A stretch of 44,419 bases of DNA from Phlyctochytrium arcticum. Lineage: Eukaryota > Chytridiomycota > Chytridiomycetes > Chytridiales > Chytridiaceae. Below, piece by piece: positions 1 to 30,302 of the stretch. The position numbers were made by a program, and so were the translations under genes. The notes beneath the pieces are model-generated. The model had not been told where the DNA came from, did not search any database, and saw only the letters and a program-made list of their open reading frames with translations. Location of the stretch: positions 1-44,419 of the forward strand of contig JAHLKI010000066.1 of NCBI GenBank assembly GCA_025602905.1, read 5' to 3'. Each line of letters starts with the position of its first letter. The stretch's first letter is position 1.

Positions 1-625
1 CACTGTCACCGCCGATTTCTACCTGCGCTTTTGCGCCGCAAACGACCTGGTCTCTCTCCTCCCCAGCAACCTCCTCCTCTTCACCACCACCGATACATCA
101 ACGTTCAACCATGCCACAGCATTGGCGGACTACAACCGCGCTGCTCGCGAGTCCGGACTCCCACCAAATGCTCCCCGCCCGCCCGCCTTTGCCCCGCATC
201 CCCGCCGCGGAAAGTAACGATATGGACATTGCGCCCCCGTCCCCTTCGGCGCCCCCTACCTCCAACACCATGCCGGCAACCGTCCCACCACCACTACACC
301 AACTACCGCCCCCCCGGTCACGCCCACCACCTCAGCTGCTATGGAACTGACACTTGAGAAACCAAGCATTTCGCCATCTCCCCCATCTCAACCATTTGCA
401 ACGCAAGCACCGCGCGGTCCACGGGATTCGTCATCCCCGCTTACGTCTGGACGCGTTGACAGATCCGCTCGCCCACCACGCGTTAATACCGTCAAGGACC
501 TCCCCAGCAACACACCCGAATACCGCACGCAAGACAGCGAGGCCGGCCAGCCTGCTCCCCACACCAAAGAACAGCAACCACCCCTCCCCCACTATGATAA
601 CCAGCGGAGGCGCCGCTCAGAATGA
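1..625 (+). pseudogene. LINE ORF1, C-terminal part, copy A
   Basis: Corresponds to the last ~208 residues of the ORF1 protein that is intact in copy B, downstream of the RRM-like fold: the Pro/Thr/Ser-rich linker and the basic tail ending in QRRRRSE. The frame is broken by an extra A in the run at about 210-212 and by a missing C near 285. From 341 the correct frame is open to the stop at 623-625. The ORF2 start codon overlaps this stop as ATGA, as in the other copies. It is labelled a pseudogene because of the indels, though these may be consensus errors. Confidence 0.75.
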
Positions 626-3600
626 GTGCCGAACCCACCACCACCCTTGCACGGACGGTAGCGTACCTGAACGTGCAGGGTCTTACCGATGCAAAGTATG
701 CTACACTCGCGACCCTTTTCGATCCCTGGCAATGGGGTGTCCTTGTCTTGGCCGAGACATGGCGCACGCCCTCCCCTGCTCTCTACGACAATTGGCTTAT
801 GGCCAAATCAACACCACCCGCTACCCCCGCACCACTGGACACCAGAACGCCGGCCTTGCTCTTATGGTTCCCCCTCCTCTCCAACAATACATTTCCCTCC
901 TCGACATCAGCGAATTCTCCATCACCTTCCGTTTCCACCACCACACCATCCAGGCCGTCTACCTCCCACCTCGCCTAGAAGACACCGCCATCACCGCCAT
1001 CCTCGAACGCCAACCTACCCCCGACATCCTTATTGGTGATCTCAACATCCGACTAGGCCGCCTCACCAAAGACACTACAACCTCCGAACCCGGCCGCCGC
1101 TCCACCATCTTCCACTAACACCGACGCCCGCGACCTAACGCTCACTCCACCCACGGAAGGCAGAACCACCACCGACTTGATATTTGCCCGCCCATCCACT
1201 GTCCCATATTGGGGGTATTTCCGCAACGCTACCGTCCAATCCGATCATGGCTTAATGTATACTCACCTCTCATCTCTTCCTTCTCAGAATACCGGGGCGC
1301 ATGGGTCCGCTCTACCAACTGGACCTGGGGAACGACAACGCGTTCAGTACCCGTCTGGTTGGTGGGGAGTGGATGAGGACCCACTGGAAAGTCGCTCCAT
1401 CCATCTCCGAGACCTGGTAAGACTTGACGTCCGCGAACGTGTATGTAACAAATATCTCTCCCTACGCTCTACCCTCACCGACGCCCTCGACACTGCCATC
1501 CAATGCTCCTCTGCCAGCCGCTCTATGGTCGTCGACTCCGTCGACGCTTTGGTCTCGCCCTTCACTCCACCATCCTTGCCACCGCCAACAACACCCTCGG
1601 CTACTATTATGTTAAAGCCGCCAAGGCCCGCCCACAACCCACCGACATCATCCACTCCTCCACCAACGACCTCCACGACCCCTTCCACACCACCGCCGCC
1701 ATCCGCGCATTCAAACGATCCCGGCGCGGCCTTCAACCCACCCTCACCAGCGGCCATCCCGACCTTTCCCCCATCCAAGCAACCGAAGAGCGGTTCAAGA
1801 AAACTTCTCCCAATGCCACGCCGAACGCCCCACGGACCCCGGTGGCTCCGACAACTTAGAGCTATCCCATCCAGAACGCAGCGCATTCTCTACCAACAAC
1901 ATTTCCTCTGCCCTTCGCCACTATCCCAAATGTCGCAGTGGCGGCCCTGACGGACTCCACCAAACCCTCCTCTCTGCGCTCTGCGACTCTACCACCTTTG
2001 AAGAAGATCTTGCTGCTGTGTTCCGTCACTTGTGTCCGCGTCTGGTGCCAGCCAATCCCCGCCTGCGGGAACACAAGCAAAACTTAGTACTCAATCCCCA
2101 AGAACCGACCACCAACACCCACATTCCCAACTGCCGACCTATCGCCCTTACCCAAATACTTCCGCCGCATCTTCGAAAGCTGCTTACTCAAGGCATGGCG
2201 CACGCGTGCCTGGATCCGTACCCACCCCTCGCAAGGCGGTTTCCAAAAACAGCAAGGCTGCTCCCACCTCGCCCTTGCCTCCGATGCTTCATGCCGCCTA
2301 GGAGCAGAATACCAAGTCTTCCTAGATGTGATGGGCGCGTATGACCATGTACCCCACCACCACCTGATTGCAATCCTTCTGGGCCGTAATGCACCCCGGC
2401 GGGACGTCAGTCTTGTCTTCACCCTCTTCTGCCGTCAGATGTCCACCGTCCCAATTGTCAACGGCATGCGATGCCCCCCAATCTCCATCATCCGCGGCCT
2501 TTTCCAAGGCTCCGTTCTCTCACCCTCCCTTTTCAATGTTTTTATAGATCCCCTCGCCGTCCGCCTCGCCACCGTCAACGACTTCCCCAATAACGACCTT
2601 CCCAGCGCCCTCCTCTTCGCCGACGACATCAAGCTCCAATCCGCCACCATCCCCTCCCTCCGCAAGTCCATCACCATCTGTGAAGAATGGGCCGACACCA
2701 ACTTTCTCCAGTTTGGCCTACCCAAGTGCGGCATCATCAACGCTCCCCCCGACACCGTCTTCCCCCTCCAGTCTGGCACCATCCCCCACGTCACCTCCTA
2801 CAAATACCTCGGCTTTCCCCACACTTCCCGCGGCATAAATTGGCCGGACTTTGTCCGTGGCACAACAGCCAAGGCCGCTGGTCTCCTCTCCTACACCACC
2901 ACCCGCAGCCAATCTTGGACCCCCGCTACCCGCCTTACCATCTACCGCACCTTCATCCAGTCACTCTCCACGTACGGTATGGAGTCCTTCGGCCTTTGGC
3001 TGGATGGACAACCGCCTGAAATACAACGCCAGCTGCTCGACCCCATCCACGCCATCCACATCGACGCCCTTGAGTGGATCTTCGGTTCCTCCTCCCGCAA
3101 CTCCCGTGCCATCATGGAAAGTATGACTGGCCTCCCGCACCCTGTTCGCCGTATGGAAGAACTCGCCGCGTCCTTTGCGTCCCGCCTGACCCTCCCCTCT
3201 ACCTTTGCGCCCACATCCCCCTGGTCACTCGTCAACCGCAAGTTCACCCGCCACGGCCCATGGCCCATCGGCGAAATCATCCCCCGCCTGCGTCTTCCTA
3301 CTCAACCCCTCCTTGTCCTCTACAACACCATCCTCGACAACACACCCAGCAACCAACCCCGCCTGTCCTGGAAAACCTTTCTACGCCGCGACCGTCTCCT
3401 CCAACACCGCCTTACCATCGACGACGACAATCCCCACCGCCCACCACGCACTACACCCCCCGCTATCTTTCGCTCCTCCTACCTCGCCACCCCAGCAATC
3501 CTCCCCAACTCCATCACCTCCACCTGCCGCTCATCAAAAGGAAATGGCGCTGACCGCTGTCTTCTCGCCAGACCACCTTCCCTCGCTCGCGCCCTCATCC

Positions 3601-3977
3601 AATGGCGTTTGAACAAGCTCTCCCCCCATCTCCGCTGCCCCCGCCCCGGATGCCACCACCAACAGCTTACCCGCGGCCACGTCCTCGATTGCAACGTCTT
3701 TGGACATCACCCAACTACCTCCGCCACATCCGCGCTCATGTCCAAGGCCACCGCCCGCCGTATCCACCTCGCCCAACGCGGCTTCCGCGCAAGTCACCAC
3801 AACCTCCTCGACGAAGCCATCAACGCCCAAGAATACGACACCTTCCTCCTCCTCTACACCGAAATGAAGCAATGGACCGCCGCCAACCTCGAAGCGCGCG
3901 CACAAGCCGAAGACGACAACCCCGCCACCCCACCAAGCTCCCCGTCCGCCTCTCACCCTCCCACCGGCATCGGATAA
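622..3977 (+). pseudogene. LINE ORF2 (APE endonuclease + reverse transcriptase), copy A, frame-broken
   Basis: Same protein as copy B ORF2. Visible endonuclease elements are the N-terminal YLNVQGL and LAETW motifs, GDLNIR near 1036-1055 and SDHG near 1243. Reverse transcriptase elements are the catalytic FLDVMGAYD block at about 2320-2345, GLFQGSVLSP at about 2495-2525, and FADD at about 2617-2628. The Cys/His motif (CPRPGC, then HVLDC) lies at about 3636-3694. Interruptions relative to B and C are a missing base near 825, an extra A making TAA at 1116-1118, losses near 1551 and 1806, and a divergent stretch at 2030-2105. From 2328 to the stop at 3977 the frame is fully open. Confidence 0.85.
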
Positions 3978-4015
3978 GTATTATCACTCCCCATCACTAT
4001 GTCTCGTTGCTCTCA

Positions 4016-4034
4016 CCCCCCCCCCCCCCCCCCC
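4016..4034 (+). repeat. Poly-C tract, 19 C, copy A
   Basis: Uninterrupted run of 19 C, 39 nt after the ORF2 stop. The matching tracts are 18 C in copy B and 21 C in copy C, so the length varies while the flanks do not. Confidence 0.95.
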
Positions 4035-4659
4035 TCACCGTCCGGTAGATTAGAACATGTAGATAGCCTCCCCTGCCCCGCGTATTACCACCACCCAGAC
4101 CAGCCTTACCACCACCACCACCCGCAACATCTTCAACACCGGCGCCCGACATCTGACCTCCCAGCAGACTCGGCCGCGTTGTTGTCCTCCCACCATCACC
4201 CAGACCATCCCCCACACTAATATCATCGGGTCCACCACCATATCCCCACCATTCCCTTGACCGTTCCTACCACTAATACCGCACGGTCTCACATCACTCG
4301 CCCCACTCGCATCACACTCTCCCCATCACCATGACCATGTCCTCCATTAATCCCACCCGGCCTTCCACCAAAATTACCGCTACGCCCATTCCCTACCACA
4401 CGCCATGCCGGACCTTGACACAATTAATACCGCCCGGCCCGCAACCACCCTCTCCACCAACGACACCTCTCCCACCACACCCCGGCCATCCCCTTCATTA
4501 ATTACATCGGCCCTCTTCTCCCAAACCACCGCTGTGTGCAACCCATGCTACCCCAAGTCTCGGCCATCCCCATCACAAATACCACCCGGCCTTCTACCAT
4601 TTCCCAACCACGCAAGACTCTCCGTCACCACCCAGCCCATCTCCTATCACCCATTAAGT

Positions 4660-4718
4660 CTGGGACTTCGTCCCAGCGTCGAATTGTCGCCTTTACTGAG
4701 TCTGGGACTTCGTCCCAG
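4660..4718 (+). other. Paired 3'UTR hairpins, copy A
   Basis: Two copies (4660-4676 and 4702-4718) of CTGGGACTTCGTCCCAG, each a perfect 7-bp stem with a 3-nt loop. A third hairpin with loop TCC instead of TTC lies at 5373-5389. Confidence 0.9.
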
Positions 4719-5822
4719 CGTGGAACTGCCGCCATCATTGCTCCCATCCCACTCTCAACATCCCACCCACCCGTTAGATAGACTAGTACCCTGTAGATAG
4801 CCTCCCCAGTCCCGCCACTTATCACCCCCACTCCCCGCAATGTTCCCAACACCGGCGCCCGATACCTGACCCCTCAGCAGACTCGGCCGCGTTGTTGCAC
4901 TCTCCACCACCACCAAGATCATCCTCCTCACCAATACCACCGGGTTGACCACCATATCCCCAACACCATAACGACCATCCCTCCCATCTCTGCCGCACGG
5001 CCTTCCACCACTCTCCCCACATGGAACACATCACCCACATCACCCTGGCCATCCTCTTCATTAATTCCATCGGGCCCCTCACCACAAATGCCGCTATGTC
5101 CATCTCCCATCACCTCCCATCTCGGGCATTGCCTCAAATAATACCGCCCGATCCCCAATCACCCTCCCCACGCACACCATCGTTCCCCAAACACCCTGGC
5201 CACCCTCTTCATTAATTCCATCGGCCTCCTCACCAAAATCACCGCTGTGTGCAACACACGCTACCCCACGTCCCGGCCATCGCAATCATTAATACCACCC
5301 GGCCTTCTATCATCCACCACTCGCACAACACTCTCCCCCATCACCCTGCCCATCTCTCATCATTCTTTTAGTCTGGGACTCCGTCCCAGCTTGGAATTGC
5401 TGCCATCCTCACTACCACCCCGCCCTGGACATCACACCGGCCTTCATCTCTGCCCCGCTGCTTCCTAACATCCACGACATCATCCAATGCATGGGCCCAC
5501 CCCTCCTACCGGTCAACACATCCTCTGGCACCCCAAGTACCTCTCCTCCATCACTTTTTGCGTTTTCTCGGCGTATTTTGACTATCCTAGCATCTCTTGT
5601 GTCTTAGTACATAGCTATGCCCTCCTCCACCTCCATCTCTAAGGATTGGTCCCCCTTGCTCACTCCTCCTCTCCGCTGCCCCACCTCGGTCTGCCATCAC
5701 ATCTTAGCCTAGTTTTTTGCATTTTTTCGATTTTTTCCATTTTTTCCTCGATTGTCTAGTTGGTCTTATAGATAGATGTCCTGTATACATGTACATTGCT
5801 TCTAATAACACCTCCCTCTCCT

Positions 5823-5836
5823 CCTAACCCTAACCC
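5823..5836 (+). repeat. Telomere-like seed at A/B junction
   Basis: CCTAACCCTAACCC, two and a third units of the C-rich telomere strand, followed by TG and then the first 22-nt repeat of copy B. It marks the boundary between copies. Confidence 0.93.
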
Positions 5837-5838
5837 TG

Positions 5839-5988
5839 TTTCTTTCTAGTAGTTCAGATGTTTCTTTCTAGTAGTTCAGATGTTTCTTTCTAGTAGTTCA
5901 GATGTTTCTTTCTAGTAGTTCAGATGTTTCTTTCTAGTAGTTCAGATGTTTCTTTCTAGTAGTTCAGATGTTTCTTTCTAGTAGTTCA
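5839..5988 (+). repeat. 5' tandem 22-nt repeats, copy B
   Basis: Six perfect units of 22 nt, each beginning TTTCTTTCTAGTAG and ending CAGATG (5839-5970), followed by an 18-nt partial unit (5971-5988). They sit at the extreme 5' end, directly after the telomeric seed of copy A. Tandem 5' monomers act as promoters in some LINEs (mouse L1); that role here is inference. Confidence 0.92.
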
Positions 5989-6430
5989 CGCGCATAAAAC
6001 ACGTTTACGACCATTACTAGACCCACACAAGGCGGCTTCATCTCACCGCACATCCACCCGATAGCGCTCATCTACGGCTATCCAACGACCCAACGCACGA
6101 CTTGCCCGGACTCCTTTGACTTAGTGAAGTTTTCAGCATTTCGCCATTGCCAAGATCTTTTTGGCCAATTCCACAACCACCACCACGTTTCTGTCTACTC
6201 TGTAGTCAATTTGCACTCGATCCATCCATCCATCCGCTCAATTTATTCAGCAACCTCTCGCGCACATTTCCAGACCATTTGTGTGCCAGTACGTCACCGT
6301 CCCACCATCTTCCATATAGTACCGCCCCCTTTTTCGAAGCTCCTCTCGCTGATCCCGCCAGAAAATCCGCCGCTTAAACACTCACCCGACGCGTGTACCA
6401 CCAGCCCACCCAAGCACGCACAAGTTTAGA
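5989..6430 (+). promoter_or_regulatory. LINE 5' leader, copy B
   Basis: 442 nt between the 22-nt repeats and the ORF1 ATG, conserved in copy C except for one C indel near 6355. No coding signal is convincing. It presumably holds the internal promoter and 5'UTR expected of a LINE; no specific box was recognised. Confidence 0.5.
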
Positions 6431-8626
6431 ATGTTCGACAGGTGGATGAGCAAGGGTTCTCCGTCTAAGCCGCTGGATATCCCAGCATCTGGCTCTACCC
6501 CCAAACTCCGCAAGGCCCTCCAAGTTTATGCAGAGACCGGAATGTCAAGCGGATCTGACTCTGAGAAAGAACACACTGACCACCACCATCTCCACATGTC
6601 TGACCACGAAGAAGACTTCCAAGATGCCACATCGTCCCAGGCTGCCTCACCCCCAACCACTGGCGAAGGATTCAAACCCGTAGCCGGCCGCCGCCGTAAA
6701 GGAAAGAACGACACCCCAGAAATTACTGCCCAGAAGAACTGGTTTTACGACAACCGCGCTACGCTTCAGTGCATTGCCCCCACTTGCACCGCCATTGGCA
6801 AATACAACAGCGATGGCATGAACGGCAACAAGTATCGCATTAAATGCGGTGTCTGCAACGACCGCCCGTCCTTCGTCGATGTCAAGACTTCCATGGCCAA
6901 GATGCAGACCTCAGGAGCCAAGCGTGCCCGCCGCCACTCGCCCTCTACCTCGCGATCTCCTCCCCGCTCGCAAGAGACAATGTCTCCTCCCCTCCTCGAC
7001 ACCCCGGAACCAGAGGAACGCCCCGCTACCTCAGTCCCTGGCCGCCCTCCAACAAAGCCGTTTGTCCCGCGGAAGCCTACATTCCGTATCCCGGAGAAAC
7101 CCGCCAGAGCCTCCACCGCGCCGCCTGCCACCAATGCGCCGCCTTTCAAGTTCACCGCGCCGACAACGACCAACGCACCACCCACCAGCACCACTACCAC
7201 TGCCCCCAATGCCCCAGTCTTCACTGCCGCGAATGGAGTGCCCGCTACCACCAAACCCATCCTCACCACGCAAGCCTTGATTACCCAGCAACCCGCTAAC
7301 AACACAACCATCACCAACCCCGAGATGCTTGCCTTCATGCATATGATGCAGAGTCAGATGCAGAACTTTATGCAAAACACCATCACCATTGTCAACACAT
7401 TGGCCGACCGTCTGCCCCCGAAAGCACTCCCTGCACCTGCTCCCCAACCCGCTGGCCCCGCTCCTCCCAACACCCCGATGGACCAGACCCCTCACCACCA
7501 AATGCCAGGACCCGCCCCACGCACCGTCAACCCCCGTGCCAATACTACTACCAGCAAACCTCGCCCATCTTTCCGTGAAGTAGCCGCGCGCTATGCACCC
7601 GCACGACAAGCAGTTGTCCTCGACGCCCTCCGCGCACTCAACCCACCAACAAACCCCATCCCACGTCGCCAGCCTTCCGGCCCCATCACCGCCAACGCCC
7701 TGTATGTTCGCACATCATTCCGCGGAGCCTACCGCGACCTCAGAGAGAAGTTTGCCGCACTTGATGTTAACACCATCCGCATCCTCGAATTATCCTACAT
7801 TGGGTCCAATGTTGTCGAGCTCATCGTACGGAACGACAACATCCCCTTCATCACCGAGCAACTCGAACGCGCCGGCATCCCACTCCTCCACGACTTCAAC
7901 CCCACCATCCGCAACTACGGCACGCCCACAGAGAACTGGACCACCTATGCCCGCAACTCAGCCTCTACGCGCATTGCCCGCATCCTGAACTCCACCACGT
8001 CCACTGTCACCGCCGATTTCTACCTGCGCTTTTGCGCCGCAAACGACCTGGTCTCTCTCCTCCCCAGCAACCTCCTCCTCTTCACCACCACCGATACATC
8101 AACGTTCAACCATGCCACAGCATTGGCGGACTACAACCGCGCTGCTCGCGAGTCCGGACTCCCACCAAATGCTCCCCGCCCGCCCGCCTTTGCCCCGCAT
8201 CCCCGCCGCGGAAGTAACGATATGGACATTGCGCCCCCGTCCCCTTCGGCGCCCCCTACCTCCAACACCATGCCGGCAACCGTCCCCACCACCACTACAC
8301 CAACTACCGCCCCCCCGGTCACGCCCACCACCTCAGCTGCTATGGAACTGACACTTGAGAAACCAAGCATTTCGCCATCTCCCCCATCTCAACCATTTGC
8401 AACGCAAGCACCGCGCGGTCCACGGGATTCGTCATCCCCGCTTACGTCTGGACGCGTTGACAGATCCGCTCGCCCACCACGCGTTAATACCGTCAAGGAC
8501 CTCCCCAGCAACACACCCGAATACCGCACGCAAGACAGCGAGGCCGGCCAGCCTGCTCCCCACACCAAAGAACAGCAACCACCCCTCCCCCACTATGATA
8601 ACCAGCGGAGGCGCCGCTCAGAATGA
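6431..8626 (+). CDS. LINE ORF1 protein (zinc ribbon, coiled coil, RRM-like), copy B
   Basis: Intact 731-residue nucleic-acid-binding protein expected to coat the element RNA. Residues ~114-142 hold four cysteines (C114, C119, C139, C142) around a GNKYRIKCGVC stretch. This resembles the C4 zinc ribbons of transposase helper proteins more than the CCHC knuckles usual in LINE ORF1. Residues ~145-295 are Pro/Thr/Ser-rich and probably disordered. Residues ~298-329 (rich in M, Q and L) look like a short coiled coil. Residues ~422-490, starting NALYVRTSFRG, fit the RRM-like fold of fungal LINE ORF1 proteins. The tail is basic. The ATG follows an in-frame stop a few bases upstream. The stop overlaps the ORF2 ATG as ATGA, suggesting coupled translation. 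The frame is unbroken here, unlike copy C. Confidence 0.88.
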   Translation: MFDRWMSKGSPSKPLDIPASGSTPKLRKALQVYAETGMSSGSDSEKEHTDHHHLHMSDHEEDFQDATSSQAASPPTTGEGFKPVAGRRRKGKNDTPEITAQKNWFYDNRATLQCIAPTCTAIGKYNSDGMNGNKYRIKCGVCNDRPSFVDVKTSMAKMQTSGAKRARRHSPSTSRSPPRSQETMSPPLLDTPEPEERPATSVPGRPPTKPFVPRKPTFRIPEKPARASTAPPATNAPPFKFTAPTTTNAPPTSTTTTAPNAPVFTAANGVPATTKPILTTQALITQQPANNTTITNPEMLAFMHMMQSQMQNFMQNTITIVNTLADRLPPKALPAPAPQPAGPAPPNTPMDQTPHHQMPGPAPRTVNPRANTTTSKPRPSFREVAARYAPARQAVVLDALRALNPPTNPIPRRQPSGPITANALYVRTSFRGAYRDLREKFAALDVNTIRILELSYIGSNVVELIVRNDNIPFITEQLERAGIPLLHDFNPTIRNYGTPTENWTTYARNSASTRIARILNSTTSTVTADFYLRFCAANDLVSLLPSNLLLFTTTDTSTFNHATALADYNRAARESGLPPNAPRPPAFAPHPRRGSNDMDIAPPSPSAPPTSNTMPATVPTTTTPTTAPPVTPTTSAAMELTLEKPSISPSPPSQPFATQAPRGPRDSSSPLTSGRVDRSARPPRVNTVKDLPSNTPEYRTQDSEAGQPAPHTKEQQPPLPHYDNQRRRRSE

Positions 8627-11600
8627 GTGCCGAACCCACCACCACCCTTGCACGGACGGTAGCGTACCTGAACGTGCAGGGTCTTACCGATGCAAAGTAT
8701 GCTACACTCGCGACCCTTTTCGATCCCTGGCAATGGGGTGTCCTTGTCTTGGCCGAGACATGGCGCACGCCCTCCCCTGCTCTCTACGACAATTGGCTTA
8801 TGGCCAAATCAACACCACCCGCTACCGCCCGCACCACTGGACACCAGAACGCCGGCCTTGCTCTTATGGTTCCCCCCTCCTCTCCAACAATACATTTCCC
8901 TCCTCGACATCAGCGAATTCTCCATCACCTTCCGTTTCCACCACCACACCATCCAGGCCGTCTACCTCCCACCTCGCCTAGAAGACACCGCCATCACCGC
9001 CATCCTCGAACGCCAACCTACCCCCGACATCCTTATTGGTGATCTCAACATCCGACTAGGCCGCCTCACCAAAGACACTACAACCTCCGAACCCGGCCGC
9101 CGCTCCACCATCTTCCACTACACCGACGCCCGCGACCTAACGCTCACTCCACCCACGGAAGGCAGAACCACCACCGACTTGATATTTGCCCGCCCATCCA
9201 CTGTCCCATATTGGGGGTATTTCCGCAACGCTACCGTCCAATCCGATCATGGCTTAATGTATACTCACCTCTCATCTCTTCCTTCTCAGAATACCGGGGC
9301 GCATGGGTCCGCTCTACCAACTGGACCTGGGGAACGACAACGCGTTCAGTACCCGTCTGGTTGGTGGGGAGTGGATGAGGACCCACTGGAAAGTCGCTCC
9401 ATCCATCTCCGAGACCTGGTAAGACTTGACGTCCGCGAACGTGTATGTAACAAATATCTCTCCCTACGCTCTACCCTCACCGACGCCCTCGACACTGCCA
9501 TCCAATGCTCCTCTGCCAGCCGCTCTATGGTCGTCGACTCCGTCGACGCTCTTGGTCTCGCCCTTCACTCCACCATCCTTGCCACCGCCAACAACACCCT
9601 CGGCTACTATTATGTTAAAGCCGCCAAGGCCCGCCCACAACCCACCGACATCATCCACTCCTCCACCAACGACCTCCACGACCCCTTCCACACCACCGCC
9701 GCCATCCGCGCATTCAAACGATCCCGGCGCGGCCTTCAACCCACCCTCACCAGCGGCCATCCCGACCTTTCCCCCATCCAAGCAACCGAAGAGCGGTTCA
9801 AGAAAACGTTCTCCCAATGCCACGCCGAACGCCCCACGGACCCCGGTGGCTCCGACAACTTAGAGCTATCCCATCCAGAACGCAGCGCATTCTCTACCAA
9901 CAACATTTCCTCTGCCCTTCGCCACTATCCCAAATGTCGCAGTGGCGGCCCTGACGGACTCCACCAAACCCTCCTCTCTGCGCTCTGCGACTCTACCACC
10001 TTTGAAGAAGATCTTGCTGCTGTGTTCCGTCACTTTGTCCGCGTCGGTGCCACCCCCGCCTGCTGGAACACAAGCAAACTAGTACTCATCCCCAAGACCA
10101 CCACCAACACCCACATTCCCAACTGCCGACCTATCGCCCTTACCCAAATACTCCGCCGCATCTTCGAAAGCTGCTTACTCAAGGCATGGCGCACGCGTGC
10201 CTGGATCCGTACCCACCCCTCGCAAGGCGGTTTCCAAAAACAGCAAGGCTGCTCCCACCTCGCCCTTGCCTCCGATGCTTCATGCCGCCTAGGAGCAGAA
10301 TACCAAGTCTTCCTAGATGTGATGGGCGCGTATGACCATGTACCCCACCACCACCTGATTGCAATCCTTCTGGGCCGTAATGCACCCCGGCGGGACGTCA
10401 GTCTTGTCTTCACCCTCTTCTGCCGTCAGATGTCCACCGTCCCAATTGTCAACGGCATGCGATGCCCCCCAATCTCCATCATCCGCGGCCTTTTCCAAGG
10501 CTCCGTTCTCTCACCCTCCCTTTTCAATGTTTTTATAGATCCCCTCGCCGTCCGCCTCGCCACCGTCAACGACTTCCCCAATAACGACCTTCCCAGCGCC
10601 CTCCTCTTCGCCGACGACATCAAGCTCCAATCCGCCACCATCCCCTCCCTCCGCAAGTCCATCACCATCTGTGAAGAATGGGCCGACACCAACTTTCTCC
10701 AGTTTGGCCTACCCAAGTGCGGCATCATCAACGCTCCCCCCGACACCGTCTTCCCCCTCCAGTCTGGCACCATCCCCCACGTCACCTCCTACAAATACCT
10801 CGGCTTTCCCCACACTTCCCGCGGCATAAATTGGCCGGACTTTGTCCGTGGCACAACAGCCAAGGCCGCTGGTCTCCTCTCCTACACCACCACCCGCAGC
10901 CAATCTTGGACCCCCGCTACCCGCCTTACCATCTACCGCACCTTCATCCAGTCACTCTCCACGTACGGTATGGAGTCCTTCGGCCTTTGGCTGGATGGAC
11001 AACCGCCTGAAATACAACGCCAGCTGCTCGACCCCATCCACGCCATCCACATCGACGCCCTTGAGTGGATCTTCGGTTCCTCCTCCCGCAACTCCCGTGC
11101 CATCATGGAAAGTATGACTGGCCTCCCGCACCCTGTTCGCCGTATGGAAGAACTCGCCGCGTCCTTTGCGTCCCGCCTGACCCTCCCCTCTACCTTTGCG
11201 CCCACATCCCCCTGGTCACTCGTCAACCGCAAGTTCACCCGCCACGGCCCATGGCCCATCGGCGAAATCATCCCCCGCCTGCGTCTTCCTACTCAACCCC
11301 TCCTTGTCCTCTACAACACCATCCTCGACAACACACCCAGCAACCAACCCCGCCTGTCCTGGAAAACCTTTCTACGCCGCGACCGTCTCCTCCAACACCG
11401 CCTTACCATCGACGACGACAATCCCCACCGCCCACCACGCACTACACCCCCCGCTATCTTTCGCTCCTCCTACCTCGCCACCCCAGCAATCCTCCCCAAC
11501 TCCATCACCTCCACCTGCCGCTCATCAAAAGGAAATGGCGCTGACCGCTGTCTTCTCGCCAGACCACCTTCCCTCGCTCGCGCCCTCATCCAATGGCGTT

Positions 11601-11968: not shown

Positions 11969-12006
11969 GTATTATCACTCCCCATCACTATGTCTCGTTG
12001 CTCTCA

Positions 12007-12024
12007 CCCCCCCCCCCCCCCCCC
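12007..12024 (+). repeat. Poly-C tract, 18 C, copy B
   Basis: Run of 18 C, 38 nt after the ORF2 stop. The first cDNA strand would carry the matching run of G. Confidence 0.95.
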
Positions 12025-12649: not shown

Positions 12650-12708
12650 CTGGGACTTCGTCCCAGCGTCGAATTGTCGCCTTTACTGAGTCTGGGACTT
12701 CGTCCCAG
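12650..12708 (+). other. Paired 3'UTR hairpins, copy B
   Basis: CTGGGACTTCGTCCCAG at 12650-12666 and again at 12692-12708, each a 7-bp perfect stem with a 3-nt loop. They are separated by 25 nt. Confidence 0.92.
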
Positions 12709-13362: not shown

Positions 13363-13379
13363 CTGGGACTCCGTCCCAG
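13363..13379 (+). other. Third 3'UTR hairpin, copy B
   Basis: CTGGGACTCCGTCCCAG: the same stem as the upstream pair, with loop TCC. Copies A and B share the TCC loop; copy C has TTC at the same place (21352-21368). Only the loop varies. Confidence 0.9.
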
Positions 13380-13702
13380 CTTGGAATTGCTGCCATCCTC
13401 ACTACCACCCCGCCCTGGACATCACACCGGCCTTCATCTCTGCCCCGCTGCTTCCTAACATCCACGACATCATCCAATGCATGGGCCCACCCCTCCTACC
13501 GGTCAACACATCCTCTGGCACCCCAAGTACCTCTCCTCCATCACTTTTTGCGTTTTCTCGGCGTATTTTGACTATCCTAGCATCTCTTGTGTCTTAGTAC
13601 ATAGCTATGCCCTCCTCCACCTCCATCTCTAAGGATTGGTCCCCCTTGCTCACTCCTCCTCTCCGCTGCCCCACCTCGGTCTGCCATCACATCTTAGCCT
13701 AG

Positions 13703-13735
13703 TTTTTTGCATTTTTTCGATTTTTTCCATTTTTT
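13703..13735 (+). repeat. Four T6 tracts with exact 9-nt period, copy B
   Basis: T6 runs start at 13703, 13712, 13721 and 13730, each separated by three non-T bases. The same block is at 5713-5745 (A) and 21692-21724 (C). It lies about 75-110 nt before the 3' end of the element. Confidence 0.92.
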
Positions 13736-13812
13736 CCTCGATTGTCTAGTTGGTCTTATAGATAGATGTCCTGTATACATGTACATTGCTTCTAATAACA
13801 CCTCCCTCTCCT

Positions 13813-13826
13813 CCTAACCCTAACCC
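13813..13826 (+). repeat. Telomere-like seed at B/C junction
   Basis: Identical 14-nt CCTAACCCTAACCC, followed by TG and the first 22-nt repeat of copy C. Confidence 0.93.
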
Positions 13827-13828
13827 TG

Positions 13829-13977
13829 TTTCTTTCTAGTAGTTCAGATGTTTCTTTCTAGTAGTTCAGATGTTTCTTTCTAGTAGTTCAGATGTTTCTT
13901 TCTAGTAGTTCAGATGTTTCTTTCTAGTAGTTCAGATGTTTCTTTCTAGTAGTTCAGATGTTTCTTCTAGTAGTTCA
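13829..13977 (+). repeat. 5' tandem 22-nt repeats, copy C
   Basis: Six perfect 22-nt units (13829-13960) and a partial unit that lacks one T compared with copy B. The repeat number is the same as in B. Confidence 0.92.
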
Positions 13978-14420
13978 CGCGCATAAAACACGTTTACGAC
14001 CATTACTAGACCCACACAAGGCGGCTTCATCTCACCGCACATCCACCCGATAGCGCTCATCTACGGCTATCCAACGACCCAACGCACGACTTGCCCGGAC
14101 TCCTTTGACTTAGTGAAGTTTTCAGCATTTCGCCATTGCCAAGATCTTTTTGGCCAATTCCACAACCACCACCACGTTTCTGTCTACTCTGTAGTCAATT
14201 TGCACTCGATCCATCCATCCATCCGCTCAATTTATTCAGCAACCTCTCGCGCACATTTCCAGACCATTTGTGTGCCAGTACGTCACCGTCCCACCATCTT
14301 CCATATAGTACCGCCCCCTTTTTCGAAGCTCCTCTCGCTGATCCCCGCCAGAAAATCCGCCGCTTAAACACTCACCCGACGCGTGTACCACCAGCCCACC
14401 CAAGCACGCACAAGTTTAGA
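13978..14420 (+). promoter_or_regulatory. LINE 5' leader, copy C
   Basis: Leader between the 22-nt repeats and the ORF1 ATG, matching the copy B leader except for one extra C near 14344. It presumably carries the promoter and 5'UTR; no box was recognised. Confidence 0.5.
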
Positions 14421-16616
14421 ATGTTCGACAGGTGGATGAGCAAGGGTTCTCCGTCTAAGCCGCTGGATATCCCAGCATCTGGCTCTACCCCCAAACTCCG
14501 CAAGGCCCTCCAAGTTTATGCAGAGACCGGAATGTCAAGCGGATCTGACTCTGAGAAAGAACACACTGACCACCACCATCTCCACATGTCTGACCACGAA
14601 GAAGACTTCCAAGATGCCACATCGTCCCAGGCTGCCTCACCCCCAACCACTGGCGAAGGATTCAAACCCGTAGCCGGCCGCCGCCGTAAAGGAAAGAACG
14701 ACACCCCAGAAATTACTGCCCAGAAGAACTGGTTTTACGACAACCGCGCTACGCTTCAGTGCATTGCCCCCACTTGCACCGCCATTGGCAAATACAACAG
14801 CGATGGCATGAACGGCAACAAGTATCGCATTAAATGCGGTGTCTGCAACGACCGCCCGTCCTTCGTCGATGTCAAGACTTCCATGGCCAAGATGCAGACC
14901 TCAGGAGCCAAGCGTGCCCCGCCGCCACTCGCCCTCTACCTCGCGATCTCCTCCCCGCTCGCAAGAGACAATGTCTCCTCCCCTCCTCGACACCCCGGAA
15001 CCAGAGGAACGCCCCGCTACCTCAGTCCCTGGCCGCCCTCCAACAAAGCCGTTTGTCCCGCGGAAGCCTACATTCCGTATCCCGGAGAAACCCGCCAGAG
15101 CCTCCACCGCGCCGCCTGCCACCAATGCGCCGCCTTTCAAGTTCACCGCGCCGACAACGACCAACGCACCACCCACCAGCACCACTACCACTGCCCCCAA
15201 TGCCCCAGTCTTCACTGCCGCGAATGGAGTGCCCGCTACCACCAAACCCATCCTCACCACGCAAGCCTTGATTACCCAGCAACCCGCTAACAACACAACC
15301 ATCACCAACCCCGAGATGCTTGCCTTCATGCATATGATGCAGAGTCAGATGCAGAACTTTATGCAAAACACCATCACCATTGTCAACACATTGGCCGACC
15401 GTCTGCCCCCGAAAGCACTCCCTGCACCTGCTCCCCAACCCGCTGGCCCCGCTCCTCCCAACACCCCGATGGACCAGACCCCTCACCACCAAATGCCAGG
15501 ACCCGCCCCACGCACCGTCAACCCCCGTGCCAATACTACTACCAGCAAACCTCGCCCATCTTTCCGTGAAGTAGCCGCGCGCTATGCACCCGCACGACAA
15601 GCAGTTGTCCTCGACGCCCCTCCGCGCACTCAACCCACCAACAAACCCCATCCCACGTCGCCAGCCTTCCGGCCCCATCACCGCCAACGCCCTGTATGTT
15701 CGCACATCATTCCGCGGAGCCTACCGCGACCCCTCAGAGAGAAGTTTGCCGAACTTGATGTTAACACCATCCGCATCCTCGAATATCCTACATGGGTCCA
15801 ATGTTGTCGAGCTCATCGTACGGAACGACAACATCCCCTTCATCACCGAGCAACTCGAACGCGCCGGCATCCCACTCCTCCACGACTTCAACCCCACCAT
15901 CCGCAACTACGGCACGCCCACAGAGAACTGGACCACCTATGCCCGCAACTCAGCCTCTACGCGCATTGCCCGCATCCTGAACTCCACCACGTCCACTGTC
16001 ACCGCCGATTTCTACCTGCGCTTTTGCGCCGCAAACGACCTGGTCTCTCCTCCCCAGCAACCTCCTCCTCTTCACCACCACCGATACATCAACGTTCAAC
16101 CATGCCACAGCATTGGCGGACTACAACCGCGCTGCTCGCGAGTCCGGACTCCCACCAAATGCTCCCCGCCCGCCCGCCTTTGCCCCGCACCCCGCCGCGG
16201 AAGTAACGATATGGACATTGCGCCCCCGTCCCCTTCGGCGCCCCCCCTACCTCCAACACCATGCCGGCAACCGTCCCCACCACCACTACACCAACTACCG
16301 CCCCCCCGGTCACGCCCACCACCTCAGCTGCTATGGAACTGACACTTGAGAACCAAGCATTTCGCCATCTCCCCCATCTCAACCATTTGCAACGCAAGCA
16401 CCGCGCGGTCCACGGGATTCGTCATCCCCGCTTACGTCTGGACGCGTTGACAGATCCGCTCGCCCACCACGCGTTAATACCGTCAAGGACCTCCCCAGCA
16501 ACACACCCGAATACCGCACGCAAGACAGCGAGGCCGGCCAGCCTGCTCCCCACACCAAAGAACAGCAACCACCCCTCCCCCACTATGATAACCAGCGGAG
16601 GCGCCGCTCAGAATGA
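14421..16616 (+). pseudogene. LINE ORF1, copy C, frame-broken
   Basis: Same product as the intact ORF1 of copy B. The N-terminal third, including the four-cysteine zinc ribbon, is open from the ATG to about 14917, where an extra C breaks the frame. Further indels lie near 15617, 15731, 15786 and 16048. The coiled-coil and RRM-like segments can be read in alternating frames. The stop overlaps the ORF2 ATG at 16613-16616. Every break is private to this copy, which suggests consensus errors or very recent decay. Confidence 0.85.
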
Positions 16617-19600
16617 GTGCCGAACCCACCACCACCCTTGCACGGACGGTAGCGTACCTGAACGTGCAGGGTCTTACCGATGCAAAGTATGCTACACTCG
16701 CGACCCTTTTCGATCCCTGGCAATGGGGTGTCCTTGTCTTGGCCGAGACATGGCGCACGCCCTCCCTGCTCTCTACGACATTGCTTATGGCCAAATCAAC
16801 ACCACCCGCTACCCGCCCGCACCACTGGACACCAGAACGCCGGCCTTGCTCTTATGGTTCCCCCTCCTCTCCAACAATACATTTCCCTCCTCGACATCAG
16901 CGAATTCTCCATCACCTTCCGTTTCCACCACCACACCATCCAGGCCGTCTACCTCCCACCTCGCCTAGAAGACACCGCCATCACCGCCATCCTCGAACGC
17001 CAACCTACCCCCGACATCCTTATTGGTGATCTCAACATCCGACTAGGCCGCCTCACCAAGACACTACAACCTCCGAACCCGGCCGCCGCTCCACCATCTT
17101 CCACTACACCGACGCCCGCGACCTAACGCTCACTCCACCCACGGAAGGCAGAACCACCACCGACTTGATATTTGCCCGCCCATCCACTGTCCCATATTGG
17201 GGGTATTTCCGCAACGCTACCGTCCAATCCGATCATGGCTTAATGTATACTCACCTCTCATCTCTTCCTTCTCAGAATACCGGGGCGCATGGGTCCGCTC
17301 TACCAACTGGACCTGGGGAACGACAACGCGTTCAGTACCCGTCTGGTTGGTGGGGAGTGGATGAGGACCCACTGGAAAGTCGCTCCATCCATCTCCGAGA
17401 CCTGGTAAGACTTGACGTCCGCGAACGTGTATGTAACAAATATCTCTCCCTACGCTCTACCCTCACCGACGCCCTCGACACTGCCATCCAATGCTCCTCT
17501 GCCAGCCGCTCTATGGTCGTCGACTCCGTCGACGCTCTTGGTCTCGCCCTTCACTCCACCATCCTTGCCACCGCCAACAACACCCTCGGCTACTATTATG
17601 TTAAAGCCGCCAAGGCCCGCCCACAACCACCGACATCATCCACTCCTCCACCAACGACCTCCACGACCCCTTCCACACCACCGCCGCCATCCGCGCATTC
17701 AACGATCCCGGCGCGGCCTTCAACCCACCCTCACCAGCGGCCTCCCGACCTTTCCCCCATCCAAGCAACCGAAGAGCGGTTCAAGAAAACGTTCTCCCAA
17801 TGCCACGCCGAACGCCCCACGGACCCCGGTGGCTCCGACAACTTAGAGCTATCCCATCCAGAACGCAGCGCATTCTCTACCAACAACATTTCCTCTGCCC
17901 TTCGCCACTATCCCAAATGTCGCAGTGGCGGCCCTGACGGACTCCACCAAACCCTCCTCTCTGCGCTCTGCGACTCTACCACCTTTGAAGAAGATCTTGC
18001 TGCTGTGTTCCGTCACTTTGTCCGCGTCGGTGCCACCCCCGCCTGCTGGAACACAAGCAAACTAGTACTCATCCCCCAAGACCACCACCAACACCCACAT
18101 TCCCAACTGCCGACCTATCGCCCTTACCCAAATACTCCGCCGCATCTTCGAAAGCTGCTTACTCAAGGCATGGCGCACGCGTGCCTGGATCCGTACCCAC
18201 CCCTCGCAAGGCGGTTTCCAAAAACAGCAAGGCTGCTCCCACCTCGCCCTTGCCTCCGATGCTTCATGCCGCCTAGGAGCAGAATACCAAGTCTTCCTAG
18301 ATGTGATGGGCGCGTATGACCATGTACCCCACCACCACCTGATTGCAATCCTTCTGGGCCGTAATGCACCCCGGCGGGACGTCAGTCTTGTCTTCACCCT
18401 CTTCTGCCGTCAGATGTCCACCGTCCCAATTGTCAACGGCATGCGATGCCCCCCAATCTCCATCATCCGCGGCCTTTTCCAAGGCTCCGTTCTCTCACCC
18501 TCCCTTTTCAATGTTTTTATAGATCCCCTCGCCGTCCGCCTCGCCACCGTCAACGACTTCCCCAATAACGACCTTCCCAGCGCCCTCCTCTTCGCCGACG
18601 ACATCAAGCTCCAATCCGCCAACCATCCCCTCCCTCCGCAAGTCCATCACCCATCTGGTGAAGAATGGGCCGAACCAACTTTCTCCAGTTTGGCCTACCC
18701 AAGTGCGGCATCATCAACGCTCCCCCCCGACACACGTCTTCCCCCTCCAGTCTGGCACCATCCCCCACGTCACCTCCTACAAATACCTCGGCTTTCCCCA
18801 CACTTCCCGCGGCATAAATTGGCCGGACTTTGTCCGTGGCACAAACAGCCAAGGCCGCTGGTCTCCTCTCCTACACCACCACCCGCAGCCAATCTTGGAC
18901 CCCGCTACCCCGCCTTACCATCTACCGCACCTTCATCCAGTCACTCTCCACGTACGGTATGGAGTCCTTCGGCCTTTGGCTGGATGGACACCGCCTGAAA
19001 TACAACGCCAGCTGCTCGACCCCATCCACGCCATCCACATCGACGCCCTTGAGTGGATCTTCGGTTCCTCCTCCCGCAACTCCCGTGCCATCATGGAAAG
19101 TATGACTGGCCTCCCGCACCCTGTTCGCCGTATGGAAGAACTCGCCGCGTCCTTTGCGTCCCGCCTGACCCTCCCCTCTACCTTTTGCGCCCACATCCCC
19201 CTGGTCACTCGTCAACCGCAAGTTCACCCGCCACGGCCCATGGCCCATCGGCGAAATCATCCCCCGCCTGCGTCTTCCTACTCAACCCCTCCTTGTCCTC
19301 TACAACACCATCCTCGACAACACACCAGCAACCAACCCCGCCTGTCCTGGAAAACCTTTCTACGCCGCGACCGTCTCCTCCAACACCGCCTTACCATCGA
19401 CGACGACAATCCCCACCGCCCACCACGCACTACACCCCCCGCTATCTTCGCTCCTCCTACCTCGCCACCCCAGCAATCCTCCCCAACTCCATCACCTCCA
19501 CCTGCCGCTCATCAAAAGGAAATGGCGCTGACCGCTGTCTTCTCGCCAGACCACCTTCCCTCGCTCGCGCCCTCATCCAATGGCGTTTGAACAAGCTCTC

Positions 19601-19954
19601 CCCCCATCTCCGCTGCCCCCGCCCGGATGCCACCACCAACAGCTTACCCGCGGCCACGTCCTCGATTGCAACGTCTTTGGACATCACCCAACTACCTCCG
19701 CCACATCCGCGCTCATGTCCAAGGCCACCGCCCGCCGTATCCACCTCGCCCAACGCGGCTTCCGCGCAAGTCACCACAACCTCCTCGACGAAGCCATCAA
19801 CGCCCAAGAATACGACACCTTCCTCCTCCTCTACACCGAAATGAAGCAATGGACCGCCGCCAACCTCGAAGCGCGCGCACAAGCCGAAGACGACAACCCC
19901 GCCACCCCACCAAGCTCCCCGTCCGCCTCTCACCCTCCCACCGGCATCGGATAA
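16613..19954 (+). pseudogene. LINE ORF2, copy C, frame-broken
   Basis: Endonuclease and reverse transcriptase blocks are all present: GDLNIR near 17027, SDHG near 17230, FLDVMGAYD near 18294, GLFQGSVLSP near 18474, FADD near 18592. They are spread over several frames. Indels lie near 16769, 16790, 16815, 17060, 17627, 17701, 18075, 18620, 18650-18740, 18843, 19185 and 19325. It ends at the same TAA as the other copies. It is probably non-functional as assembled. Whether it is intact in the real genome depends on whether the indels are real. Confidence 0.85.
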
Positions 19955-21801
19955 GTATTATCACTCCCCATCACTATGTCTCGTTGCTCTCACCCCCCCC
20001 CCCCCCCCCCCCCTCACCGTCCGGTAGATTAGAACATGTAGATAGCCTCCCCTGCCCCGCGTATTACCACCACCCAGACCAGCCTTACCACCACCACCAC
20101 CCGCAACATCTTCAACACCGGCGCCCGACATCTGACCTCCCAGCAGACTCGGCCGCGTTGTTGTCCTCCCCACCATCACCCAGACCATCCCCCACACTAA
20201 TATCATCGGGTCCACCACCATATCCCCACCATTCCCTTGACCGTTCCTACCACTAATACCGCACGGTCTCACATCACTCGCCCCACTCGCATCACACTCT
20301 CCCCATCACCATGACCATGTCCTCCATTAATCCCACCCGGCCTTCCACCAAAATTACCGCTACGCCCATTCCCTACCACACGCCATGCCGGACCTTGACA
20401 CAATTAATACCGCCCGGCCCGCAACCACCCTCTCCACCAACGACACCTCTCCCACCACACCCCGGCCATCCCCTTCATTAATTACATCGGCCTCTTCTCC
20501 CAAACCACCGCTGTGTGCAACCCATGCTACCCCAAGTCTCGGCCATCCCCATCACAAATACCACCCGGCCTTCTACCATTTCCCAACCACGCAAGACTCT
20601 CCGTCACCACCCAGCCCATCTCCTATCACCCATTAAGTCTGGGACTTCGTCCCAGCGTCGAATTGTCGCCTTTACTGAGTCTGGGACTTCGTCCCAGCGT
20701 GGAACTGCCGCCATCATTGCTCCCATCCCACTCTCAACATCCCACCCACCCGTTAGATAGACTAGTACCCTGTAGATAGCCTCCCCAGTCCCGCCACTTA
20801 TCACCCCCACTCCCCGCAATGTTCCCAACACCGGCGCCCGATACCTGACCCCTCAGCAGACTCGGCCGCGTTGTTGCACTCTCCACCACCACCAAGATCA
20901 TCCTCCTCACCAATACCACCGGGTTGACCACCATATCCCCAACACCATAACGACCATCCCTCCCATCTCTGCCGCACGGCCTTCCACCACTCTCCCCACA
21001 TGGAACACATCACCCACATCACCCTGGCCATCCTCTTCATTAATTCCATCGGGCCCCTCACCACAAATGCCGCTATGTCCATCTCCCATCACCTCCCATC
21101 TCGGGCATTGCCTCAAATAATACCGCCCGATCCCCAATCACCCTCCCCACGCACACCATCGTTCCCCAAACACCCTGGCCACCCTCTTCATTAATTCCAT
21201 CGGCCTCCTCACCAAAATCACCGCTGTGTGCAACACACGCTACCCCACGTCCCGGCCATCGCAATCATTAATACCACCCGGCCTTCTATCATCCACCACT
21301 CGCACAACACTCTCCCCCATCACCCTGCCCATCTCTCATCATTCTTTTAGTCTGGGACTTCGTCCCAGCTTGGAATTGCTGCCATCCTCACTACCACCCC
21401 GCCCTGGACATCACACCGGCCTTCATCTCTGCCCCGCTGCTTCCTAACATCCACGACATCATCCAATGCATGGGCCCACCCCTCCTACCGGTCAACACAT
21501 CCTCTGGCACCCCAAGTACCTCTCCTCCATCACTTTTTGCGTTTTCTCGGCGTATTTTGACTATCCTAGCATCTCTTGTGTCTTAGTACATAGCTATGCC
21601 CTCCTCCACCTCCATCTCTAAGGATTGGTCCCCCTTGCTCACTCCTCCTCTCCGCTGCCCCACCTCGGTCTGCCATCACATCTTAGCCTAGTTTTTTGCA
21701 TTTTTTCGATTTTTTCCATTTTTTCCTCGATTGTCTAGTTGGTCTTATAGATAGATGTCCTGTATACATGTACATTGCTTCTAATAACACCTCCCTCTCC
21801 T
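19955..21801 (+). other. LINE 3'UTR, copy C
   Basis: Same structure as copy B: poly-C tract of 21 (19993-20013), ~75-nt degenerate repeats, hairpins at 20639-20655, 20681-20697 and 21352-21368, and phased T6 tracts at 21692-21724. The last bases before the telomeric seed are the pyrimidine-rich block CACCTCCCTCTCCT. Confidence 0.85.
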
Positions 21802-23691
21802 CCTAACCCTAACCCGCTTAGAACGGGGAAAGAGCAGTCGTGGCTCATCATCCGACTCATCAGAGGCGTTTGGATCAAGTTGTCCATCCATAAACTCAGC
21901 AGGTTCGACTGGCTTCTCAATGCGCTTCCGCTTCATCCCAGCCTTGGGCGAAGAAGAAGCAGAAACATCCGCAGAAACATCCTCATCGTCCGTGTCATAC
22001 ACCAATTGCGTAGTGATATTTCTCGATCGCATACGTCCCTCACTACCCGCGTTCCACTCTTGGTTCTCGGTGGGAATTTCGTAGCGACACGATGGACATG
22101 TGCAGGATGTTTTCAACCACGGGACCAAACATGTTCGATGAAAGAGGTGGTGGCACGGCATCAGCAAATGGGCAGTGTCATCCGGGGTATTTGATTCGCC
22201 ATCGGGTAGAGTAGGAGATGTTTTTGGCGGTACTACGACAAATTCTTCCATGCAGATGGCACATCGACTATGTTTGTCCCGCCGACGCGCGGAAATGAAA
22301 TGTACAATCTTGAGAGCTGCAATGGCCGCGTCGCTGGCCGGGGGTTGGCCTTGCATGTGCTGATTCGCGGGGTTGGCTGAGTTGAGCCTTTCGAGGAGGA
22401 TGGACAGTAACATAATGGGCAGGTTGTCGGTCCTATCTGTGGGGTCCTCGTCGGGAAGCAGATCAGAGTCAAGCGAGCCGTCGCCGGGGATAGTTGGGAA
22501 GTCTGGGTCTCGAGGGGTGTCTGGTCCAAAAACGAGAGGTTGGTTGCGGCTGCGGCGCTGATGGGCGCGTTGGCGAGCACGGGCGTATAATTCACCAAAA
22601 TTAAAAGCACCGGGAGGAAGGGGCATTCTATGTAATGGGTTGGCCGGTTGCGGCTGTTGTTGCCCAGCTTCCGAGGCACTTCCATCTTCGCCGCCTTGCT
22701 GACTACCTGGCACAGTGGCCGTGGCCGCTTGGCGAGCGTTGGCAATTAGTTGTGCAAAGTCTATTGTCCGACCCGATCGGGGCGGTTGCGCCTGTTGCTG
22801 TCCAGCTCGCGTGGCAGGTTCATCTTCGCGCCCTTCGTGGGTAGCTGGCGAAGATTCCGCTCCCGCCACATCCGGAATATCGTTGGAGATGTAAAATGTC
22901 AGCGTCAACGTTTGTGCCCGATGGGGATCGTTGGCTTCTCCAGTTCCAGCAGTTGCCGAACTGGTAGTATTTGAACCGCCTTCTGTAGCAGGGGCATCGT
23001 TGGAGACATGAAAATGAATATCATACGTTCCGCGCAATGAGCCGTTTTCGCCCGTACCAGCCCTGCTGGCAGCTTCGTTAGTGCTGGCGCCCCCAATGCC
23101 ACTGGAGCTCGCTTCATTCTCGTCACTCGAGGTAGTGGCGCCGGCCAAGTCTGATTGAGATCTGGTTGATAACGTCGGGCCCATCAATCCGGGTGGCGGG
23201 AGGGGAAAGCCGTCAGGAAGAACAGCCCATCTTCTGGCCATCGATTCCGCTGAGGCATTGGCAGGCTCCGACGATGGTGTAGTGGCTGGAATACCGAGTG
23301 ACGGCGCGGCCAATGTGGCAAGCGAGCGAAACATGGATGTGAAGGAGAGCGACTGTGACCAGTCAAATGGCGCACGCGGCAAAGGTGGACGACCAGACGG
23401 GGTGGGTTGCATATACTCTGTCTCTCCGAATAGTGTTGAGCGGGGTGTCTCTCGACGTTCCGTTTCGCCTCGTTCCGCTGAAGTCCTCGGAATGGATGAC
23501 CCAAATACCCGCCGACTACCATTACCTACATTGCTGCTGCTCGACTGTCCTTCTGGCGGGGTATTTACTTGATCAGAGCCAGTCGTGGGTGTGGCATGTG
23601 CAGACCCAGACTGATCCGGTGTGGTAGAACAATGATCGCTTGTTGAATCCATCTGCCGGTCAGAGGACAAAATCGGCTCTTGATCGGCCAT
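21781..23691 (-). CDS. RING-H2 E3 ubiquitin ligase-like protein, 3' end replaced by telomere/LINE sequence
   Basis: Single-exon frame of 636 codons from the ATG at 23691 (MADQEPIL). Most of the protein is Ser/Thr/Pro/Gln-rich and probably disordered. A RING-H2 finger lies near the C-terminus at about 22080-22265: CAIC, then MPCHHLFHRTC, then CPSC, with a long insert between the first two pairs. This is the signature of E2-recruiting ubiquitin ligases. After it come acidic and basic stretches ending LLFPRSKR at the junction. The frame then continues through the telomeric seed as VRVRRRGRCY and stops at 21781 inside LINE copy C. The last ten residues are therefore retroelement-encoded and the natural stop is missing. 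Substrate and pathway are unknown. Confidence 0.85.
   Translation of the reverse strand: MADQEPILSSDRQMDSTSDHCSTTPDQSGSAHATPTTGSDQVNTPPEGQSSSSNVGNGSRRVFGSSIPRTSAERGETERRETPRSTLFGETEYMQPTPSGRPPLPRAPFDWSQSLSFTSMFRSLATLAAPSLGIPATTPSSEPANASAESMARRWAVLPDGFPLPPPGLMGPTLSTRSQSDLAGATTSSDENEASSSGIGGASTNEAASRAGTGENGSLRGTYDIHFHVSNDAPATEGGSNTTSSATAGTGEANDPHRAQTLTLTFYISNDIPDVAGAESSPATHEGREDEPATRAGQQQAQPPRSGRTIDFAQLIANARQAATATVPGSQQGGEDGSASEAGQQQPQPANPLHRMPLPPGAFNFGELYARARQRAHQRRSRNQPLVFGPDTPRDPDFPTIPGDGSLDSDLLPDEDPTDRTDNLPIMLLSILLERLNSANPANQHMQGQPPASDAAIAALKIVHFISARRRDKHSRCAICMEEFVVVPPKTSPTLPDGESNTPDDTAHLLMPCHHLFHRTCLVPWLKTSCTCPSCRYEIPTENQEWNAGSEGRMRSRNITTQLVYDTDDEDVSADVSASSSPKAGMKRKRIEKPVEPAEFMDGQLDPNASDESDDEPRLLFPRSKRVRVRRRGRCY
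21802..21815 (+). repeat. Telomere-like seed at LINE/host junction
   Basis: CCTAACCCTAACCC followed at once by GCTTAGAACGGGG of the host gene. The last CCC could belong to either side, because the host minus strand would end ...AAGCGGG. Three-base microhomology of this kind is expected if telomerase added TTAGGG to a broken end finishing in GGG. Confidence 0.9.
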
Positions 23692-30269: not shown

Positions 30270-30302
30270 GGAGGAGTCCTCCAAGGCCCTTTTTACAAAA
30301 TT

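Follow-up and report, generated by a model that had tools for sequence, protein, structure and literature searches.

The window analyzed here, which is the whole of contig C66 (44,419 bp, in a 31.48-Mb assembly of 91 contigs), starts with a head-to-tail array of a LINE (family A) whose copies each end in a telomere-like 3' tail. This array appears to occupy an internal locus where the number of copies varies, barring a misjoin shared by two other contigs, C6 and C65. The tail is common to at least four LINE families in Phlyctochytrium arcticum, and this chain-forming group of telomere-tailed LINEs is a variant of known LINE-chain behavior, with Zepp nearest. Our preferred reading, to which we give about even chances, is that the chains grow by reverse transcription that joins the telomere-like tail of a new copy onto an exposed DNA end, and that the window holds such a chain at an internal site. 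An early-diverging fungus in which several LINE families share such a tail and are chained tail to head is a natural case that makes the transition from an ordinary to a telomere-building LINE directly testable, and it has a bearing on the origin of LINE clusters as markers of chromosome ends or centromeres.

The array and its right flank are laid out as follows:

1..5836, plus strand: LINE family A copy 1, 5836 bp, lacking its 5' part because the contig starts within it
5823..5836, plus strand: telomere-like 3' tail CCTAACCCTAACCC of copy 1
5837..13826, plus strand: LINE family A copy 2, complete, 7990 bp
5837..5988, plus strand: 5' monomers of copy 2, 22 nt x 6.9
6431..8626, plus strand: ORF1 of copy 2, 731 aa, without a Pfam family
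8690..11968, plus strand: ORF2 frame of copy 2, with a weak APE-type endonuclease, a reverse transcriptase and a C-terminal cysteine/histidine motif (by eye)
12007..12024, plus strand: poly-C run after ORF2 of copy 2 (4016-4034 and 19993-20013 in copies 1 and 3)
12650..12708, plus strand: first two of three inverted CTGGGACTTCGTCCCAG motifs in the copy 2 3' UTR, the last being at 13363 (copies 1 and 3 likewise)
13813..13826, plus strand: telomere-like 3' tail of copy 2
13827..21815, plus strand: LINE family A copy 3, complete, 7989 bp, with frames broken by many small indels
13827..13977, plus strand: 5' monomers of copy 3, 22 nt x 6.9
21802..21815, plus strand: telomere-like 3' tail of copy 3, followed directly by genic DNA
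21816..44419, no strand: genic right flank, collinear by its end points with C6:724115-746706 and C65:13191-35771

The three copies end at 5836, 13826, and 21815, each in CCTAACCCTAACCC (about two telomere repeats), and wherever another copy follows, its 22-nt monomers start immediately after this tail. The initial annotation had described three copies of about 7.99 kb separated by 14 nt of telomere sequence plus TG. The array and the 14-nt tail hold up, but only two of the copies are complete, and the TG is the start of the first monomer. Copy 2 differs from copy 3 by 2 substitutions and 36 indel events over 8010 aligned columns, and from copy 1 by 1 substitution and 20 indel events. Because these indels are mostly of one base, with many in homopolymers, they are probably consensus errors, and so are the broken frames of copy 3.

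Regarding the parts ascribed to the element by the same annotation, the 5' monomers (6.9 units) and the poly-C run (19, 18, and 21 nt in copies 1, 2, and 3) are present. The hairpin 3' UTR is borne out in part: each copy has three inverted motifs of the CTGGGAC-NNN-GTCCCAG type, and positions 12640-12720 have a stable predicted RNA fold (z -2.78 against shuffles, of which 3 in 200 fold as well), but two motifs pair with each other in this fold instead of forming two separate hairpins. The CTGGGACTTCGTCCCAG motif is shared by families A, B, and C in their 3' UTRs (window 12650-12708, L014:1439-1504, L045:1599) and was not found in the scanned pieces of D, D', and E. The proposed zinc ribbon in ORF1 was not confirmed, as it comes down to a cysteine pattern with no Pfam match. 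A zinc ribbon conserved between the ORF1 proteins of families A and C was likewise considered and is not supported, the similarity between the two being not significant (E 0.36).

For ORF2, the reverse transcriptase is matched by Pfam RVT_1 (E 1.7e-18; 67.5 bits, cut-off 29.6). The APE-type assignment stands in a weaker form, for N-terminal endonuclease matches exist but lie below the Pfam cut-offs (21.5 vs 27.4 and 17.6 vs 24.5 bits, in a general Pfam search). Among solved structures, R2 proteins (E 4.9e-19) and LINE-1 ORF2p (E about 1e-5) come closest, and the most similar protein is P0001 (42% identical). In a 60-row reverse transcriptase tree, which had no known Zepp, Tad, R1, or CRE reference, family A and 13 other proteins formed one clade with a support of 100/100. 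These 13 partners are unnamed proteins, and assignment to a named LINE clade was dropped, as no named close relative was found. A search for relatives in viral contigs confirmed none of 41 pattern matches.

The position of the array can be read from C6 (1.28 Mb), which from left to right contains 719 kb of DNA, a single 5'-truncated copy of family A, and the window's right flank. C65 starts in the last 124-127 bp of the C6 left flank and has the same truncation joint, one extra full copy, and the same right flank. When compared over its 1500-bp start and its 2120-bp far end, the right flank of C66 is 100% identical to C6 and to C65 in the former and 100% identical to C6 and 99.9% to C65 in the latter. 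The statement that the last copy abuts unique DNA is thus incorrect, given the presence of this flank in three contigs. A THI5-like gene in the window, with its exons assembled by eye, encodes a product that matches a P. arcticum protein found on three contigs at 100% identity over 327 aa. Because C6 and C65 both carry the left flank, the truncated copy, and the right flank, the array is taken as internal with a contig-dependent copy number. The difference in number may be one between cells or haplotypes, or an effect of the assembly.

At this locus on C6, the left gene has its stop codon 106 bp from the joint, and if the flanks are joined without the array, the convergent gene on the right, RING-type by eye, ends 12 codons beyond the joint. 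The left flank on C6 (9 kb at 708-717 kb plus 405 bp at the joint) has no match to any LINE found in this genome, and no empty allele of the locus was found. Exact target-site duplications of 2-20 nt are absent from both internal arrays with both outer flanks read (this locus and the D array, both on C6), which agrees with the initial view that insertion with target duplications is not involved. Two other features of the surrounding DNA may be recorded. To the left of the locus, at about 708-710 kb of C6 (L040:50-1900), a gene resembles by eye a Crinkler-type (CRN) protein, and at window positions 30294-30449 a 72-bp segment is duplicated in tandem (95% matches), a short distance upstream of a small ORF.

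The telomere-like tail is not confined to family A. Family B shares 74% identity with A across 0.7 kb of ORF2 and has 5' monomers of 21 nt. The 3' UTRs differ among families C and D and the more divergent 3' ends of D' and E, but all of these carry the same tail. A putative short element of 1.2 kb was rejected, as family C proved to be a longer LINE seen 5'-truncated in D arrays. Genome-wide, the exact 13-mer CCTAACCCTAACC is found 27 times, compared with 10 for a control (the pattern read backwards). All 28 distinct tail junctions examined were located by the word CCTAACCCTA, and the tail is 10-18 nt long at these junctions. Further telomere-like sequence is absent at the start of 27 of the 28 distinct 3' flanks, the exception being junction 16.

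In 15 of these 28 junctions (1, 2, 3, 7, 8, 9, 11, 12, 14, 15, 16, 17, 22, 25, and 26), whose loci were mostly gathered through LINE searches, the tail runs into another LINE; among the 16 distinct junctions that came from genome-wide exact 13-mer matches only, eight do so. These joints were called by sequence match, except for junctions 11, 14, and 17, which were called by ORF content. Junction 16 reaches the LINE after some 20 nt of further D tail, and junction 22 runs into a truncated B. Junction 21, which matches A over 31 nt only, is outside the 15, and the other 12 junctions run into DNA without a demonstrated LINE, some of which resembles other mobile elements by eye. The 5' ends joined in this way are full-length in A|A, C|B, and B|C, and others, from A, B, C, D, and D', are truncated. 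From its center leftwards, the cluster on C27 contains a truncated B, an apparently full C, a full B, a truncated C, and a 48-bp B remnant with its tail, followed by other DNA, and the joints read there have no spacer. Elements were read on both sides for B (C27 and C46), C (C27), C and D (D arrays), and A (window), and in each case the 5' side carries the tail of another element, not the missing half of the 3' neighbor. Ordinary nested insertion with empty sites, which was considered for the A-B, C-A, and B-D joints, is therefore rejected where both sides were read; the A-B and C-A joints on C57 were followed on the 3' side only. In addition, about 17 kb of LINE cluster is apparently common to C27:17002-34106 and C46:119480-136586 (equal spacing; 99.96% identical over the 4.5 kb compared). 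Since the downstream flanks differ, the clusters may exchange sequence, or the assembly may be chimeric there.

A search with the window's ORF2 protein (45 of 62 candidates scored) gave 50 matches in about a dozen clusters, with none on C1, C2, C4, C5, C7, and C9. LINE arrays are present at eight contig ends (C3R, C8L, C8R, C28L, C46R, C47L, C57R, and C66L), and all eight known arrays have their 3' ends inward, although these ends are partly dependent, as C66L is the internal C6 locus and C46R appears to share about 17 kb with C27. The left end of C65 was left out of this count because it begins in the left flank, and the outermost 1.2 kb of C8L is a head-to-head minus piece with its 3' side toward the contig end. 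Four clusters (C17, C27, C50, and C75) are head-to-head: their left-hand copies are minus and their right-hand copies plus, such that the 3' ends point outward. On C6, the DNA 5' of each of the two internal arrays is non-LINE. C50 also contains a large inverted repeat, in which the LINE copies, and the flanks as far as read, are mirrored around about 78.6 kb. A head-to-head B pair lies near its center, and C8 and C27 also have a B-B joint with similar end points.

With tails joined to full or truncated 5' ends and no missing half, the joints, all read from assembled contigs, fit end-joined reverse transcription at chromosome ends or breaks. The DNA end that is joined would often belong to an earlier LINE copy, as its full or eroded 5' end. 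The primer may be an exposed 3' end, provided by a break or a chromosome end, and the CCCUAA tail of the LINE RNA may help in docking or priming. The window's array may have filled a break between the two convergent genes and then closed on the 5'-truncated side, and further rounds, template jumping, or unequal exchange may have added the extra identical copies. The claim of terminal-type attachment is not supported for the window's array but is supported in kind, since tails run straight into the 5' ends of other elements and 3' ends face inward at the eight contig ends. However, the non-LINE 5' flanks of the C6 arrays weaken this end-joining model, because they are also expected from target-primed insertion with template jumping. 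The partial dependence of the eight contig ends, the tandem amplification behind some of the array growth, the 12 junctions that lead into DNA without a demonstrated LINE, the 31-nt match at junction 21, and the telomerase domain matches likewise count against it.

The latter process, as in Zepp, is a serious alternative that we consider less probable. Here, target-primed insertion would occur at internal sites, perhaps in centromeric clusters, with new copies landing in the telomere-like tails of resident copies or the enzyme jumping from RNA to RNA. Zepp is the closest known behavior and was reportedly first described at telomeres. Later work describes Zepp/ZeppL of Coccomyxa, Chlorella, and Chlamydomonas as clustered, mostly internal chains of 5'-truncated LINE copies (PMC3446292; PMC8226300), with one mostly internal cluster per chromosome (PMC3446292) and with nested insertion into existing copies giving rise to tandem arrays of 5'-truncated elements (PMC8226300). 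Clustered, same-orientation chains of 5'-truncated copies are also found in P. arcticum, the ORF2 matches likewise fall into clusters, and the outer flanks at the two C6 arrays show no LINE. However, this alternative predicts either orientation at contig ends, whereas all eight known arrays face inward, and non-LINE DNA 5' of each cluster, whereas four clusters are head-to-head chain pairs. A strict pattern of one centromere cluster per chromosome was rejected, since C6 has two clusters and C8 has arrays at both ends. The telomere-like tail, the several families per cluster, the head-to-head clusters, and the presence of more than one cluster on C6 and C8 all distinguish this group from Zepp/ZeppL.

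It is improbable that one insertion gave rise to the identical copies through unequal exchange or break-induced tandem amplification, instead of repeated retrotransposition. The 1-2 substitutions between copies are consistent with this idea, and a 7.0-kb unit of truncated C and truncated D has clearly been amplified as a block. Because this unit recurs on C6, C3, and C46 with truncations that are identical, and the 3 kb compared show 100% identity, it is plain tandem amplification, and part of the array growth is of this kind. It resembles the repeating arrays of truncated MoTeR, in which the same process is seen (PMC7367193). However, a 5'-truncated copy adjoins the left flank on C6 and C65, leaving no source for the 5' part of the full copies, and the joints between different families require a separate joining event.

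Among fungal LINEs, MoTeR (Magnaporthe) and FoTeR (Fusarium) have their 5' ends toward the chromosome end, and MoTeR further resembles the present group in relics that end in telomere repeats, in truncated composite arrays, and in internal relics (PMC7367193; PMC12857005). MoTeR and FoTeR differ in having a telomeric location, whereas the flanks here are mostly non-telomeric; the window's array itself has a genic flank and is internal on C6. They also carry a restriction-like endonuclease, a probable further difference, as the endonuclease match of ORF2 here is weak and APE-type. HeT-A, TART, and TAHRE of Drosophila form head-to-tail chains in which eroded 5' ends are joined to the next 3' end, a likeness to the chains described here. 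They have poly(A) tails in a host that is not known to have telomerase, whereas P. arcticum has telomere-like tails on its LINEs and three matches over cut-off to the telomerase RNA-binding domain (PF12009) on C19. SART1 and TRAS1 of Bombyx are APE-type LINEs, and they resemble the present group in being tied to telomere repeats. However, the SART1 target requires at least three repeats (PMC7265360), whereas here the element itself ends in roughly two repeats as its tail, and no insertion into telomeric repeat tracts is seen at 27 of the 28 distinct 3' flanks. No description of this LINE group appeared among the top-ranked papers on telomere-tailed or chytrid LINEs and related subjects, a search that left most subscription papers outside its scope, and none of four papers naming P. 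arcticum is, by its title, about transposons of this species.

The initial proposal that the window's array caps a chromosome and that the LINE maintains telomeres is very unlikely, since the inward 3' ends, the contig start inside the array, and the absence of an exact CCCTAA x3 tract would fit a cap, but DNA lies beyond the array on C6 (719 kb on its far side) and on C65 (the same left joint), and the telomerase domain matches also speak against it. More generally, an exact tract of three CCCTAA/TTAGGG units with 0-2 nt spacers occurs nowhere in the assembly (control, 1), and 35 of the 182 contig ends, each read over 150-500 bp, showed no recognizable telomere. Another chytrid, Batrachochytrium, has TTAGGG telomeres (PMC6284735). 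With telomerase domain matches present and no telomere recognizable in those ends, a LINE role in telomere maintenance stays hypothetical, and arrays other than the window's may serve as caps. Somewhat doubtfully, one may picture a LINE group that took the telomere repeat as its 3' tail and adds to both chromosome ends and breaks; the ends would be mixed-family chains replacing long TTAGGG tracts, with the telomerase gene kept, and the head-to-head clusters would be fused former ends. Finally, the right end of C10, the left end of C7, and the right end of C2 stop in one common non-LINE repeat (by eye), and a short, different repeat is common to the right ends of C5 and C27. These two repeats are candidates for other end-associated repeats.
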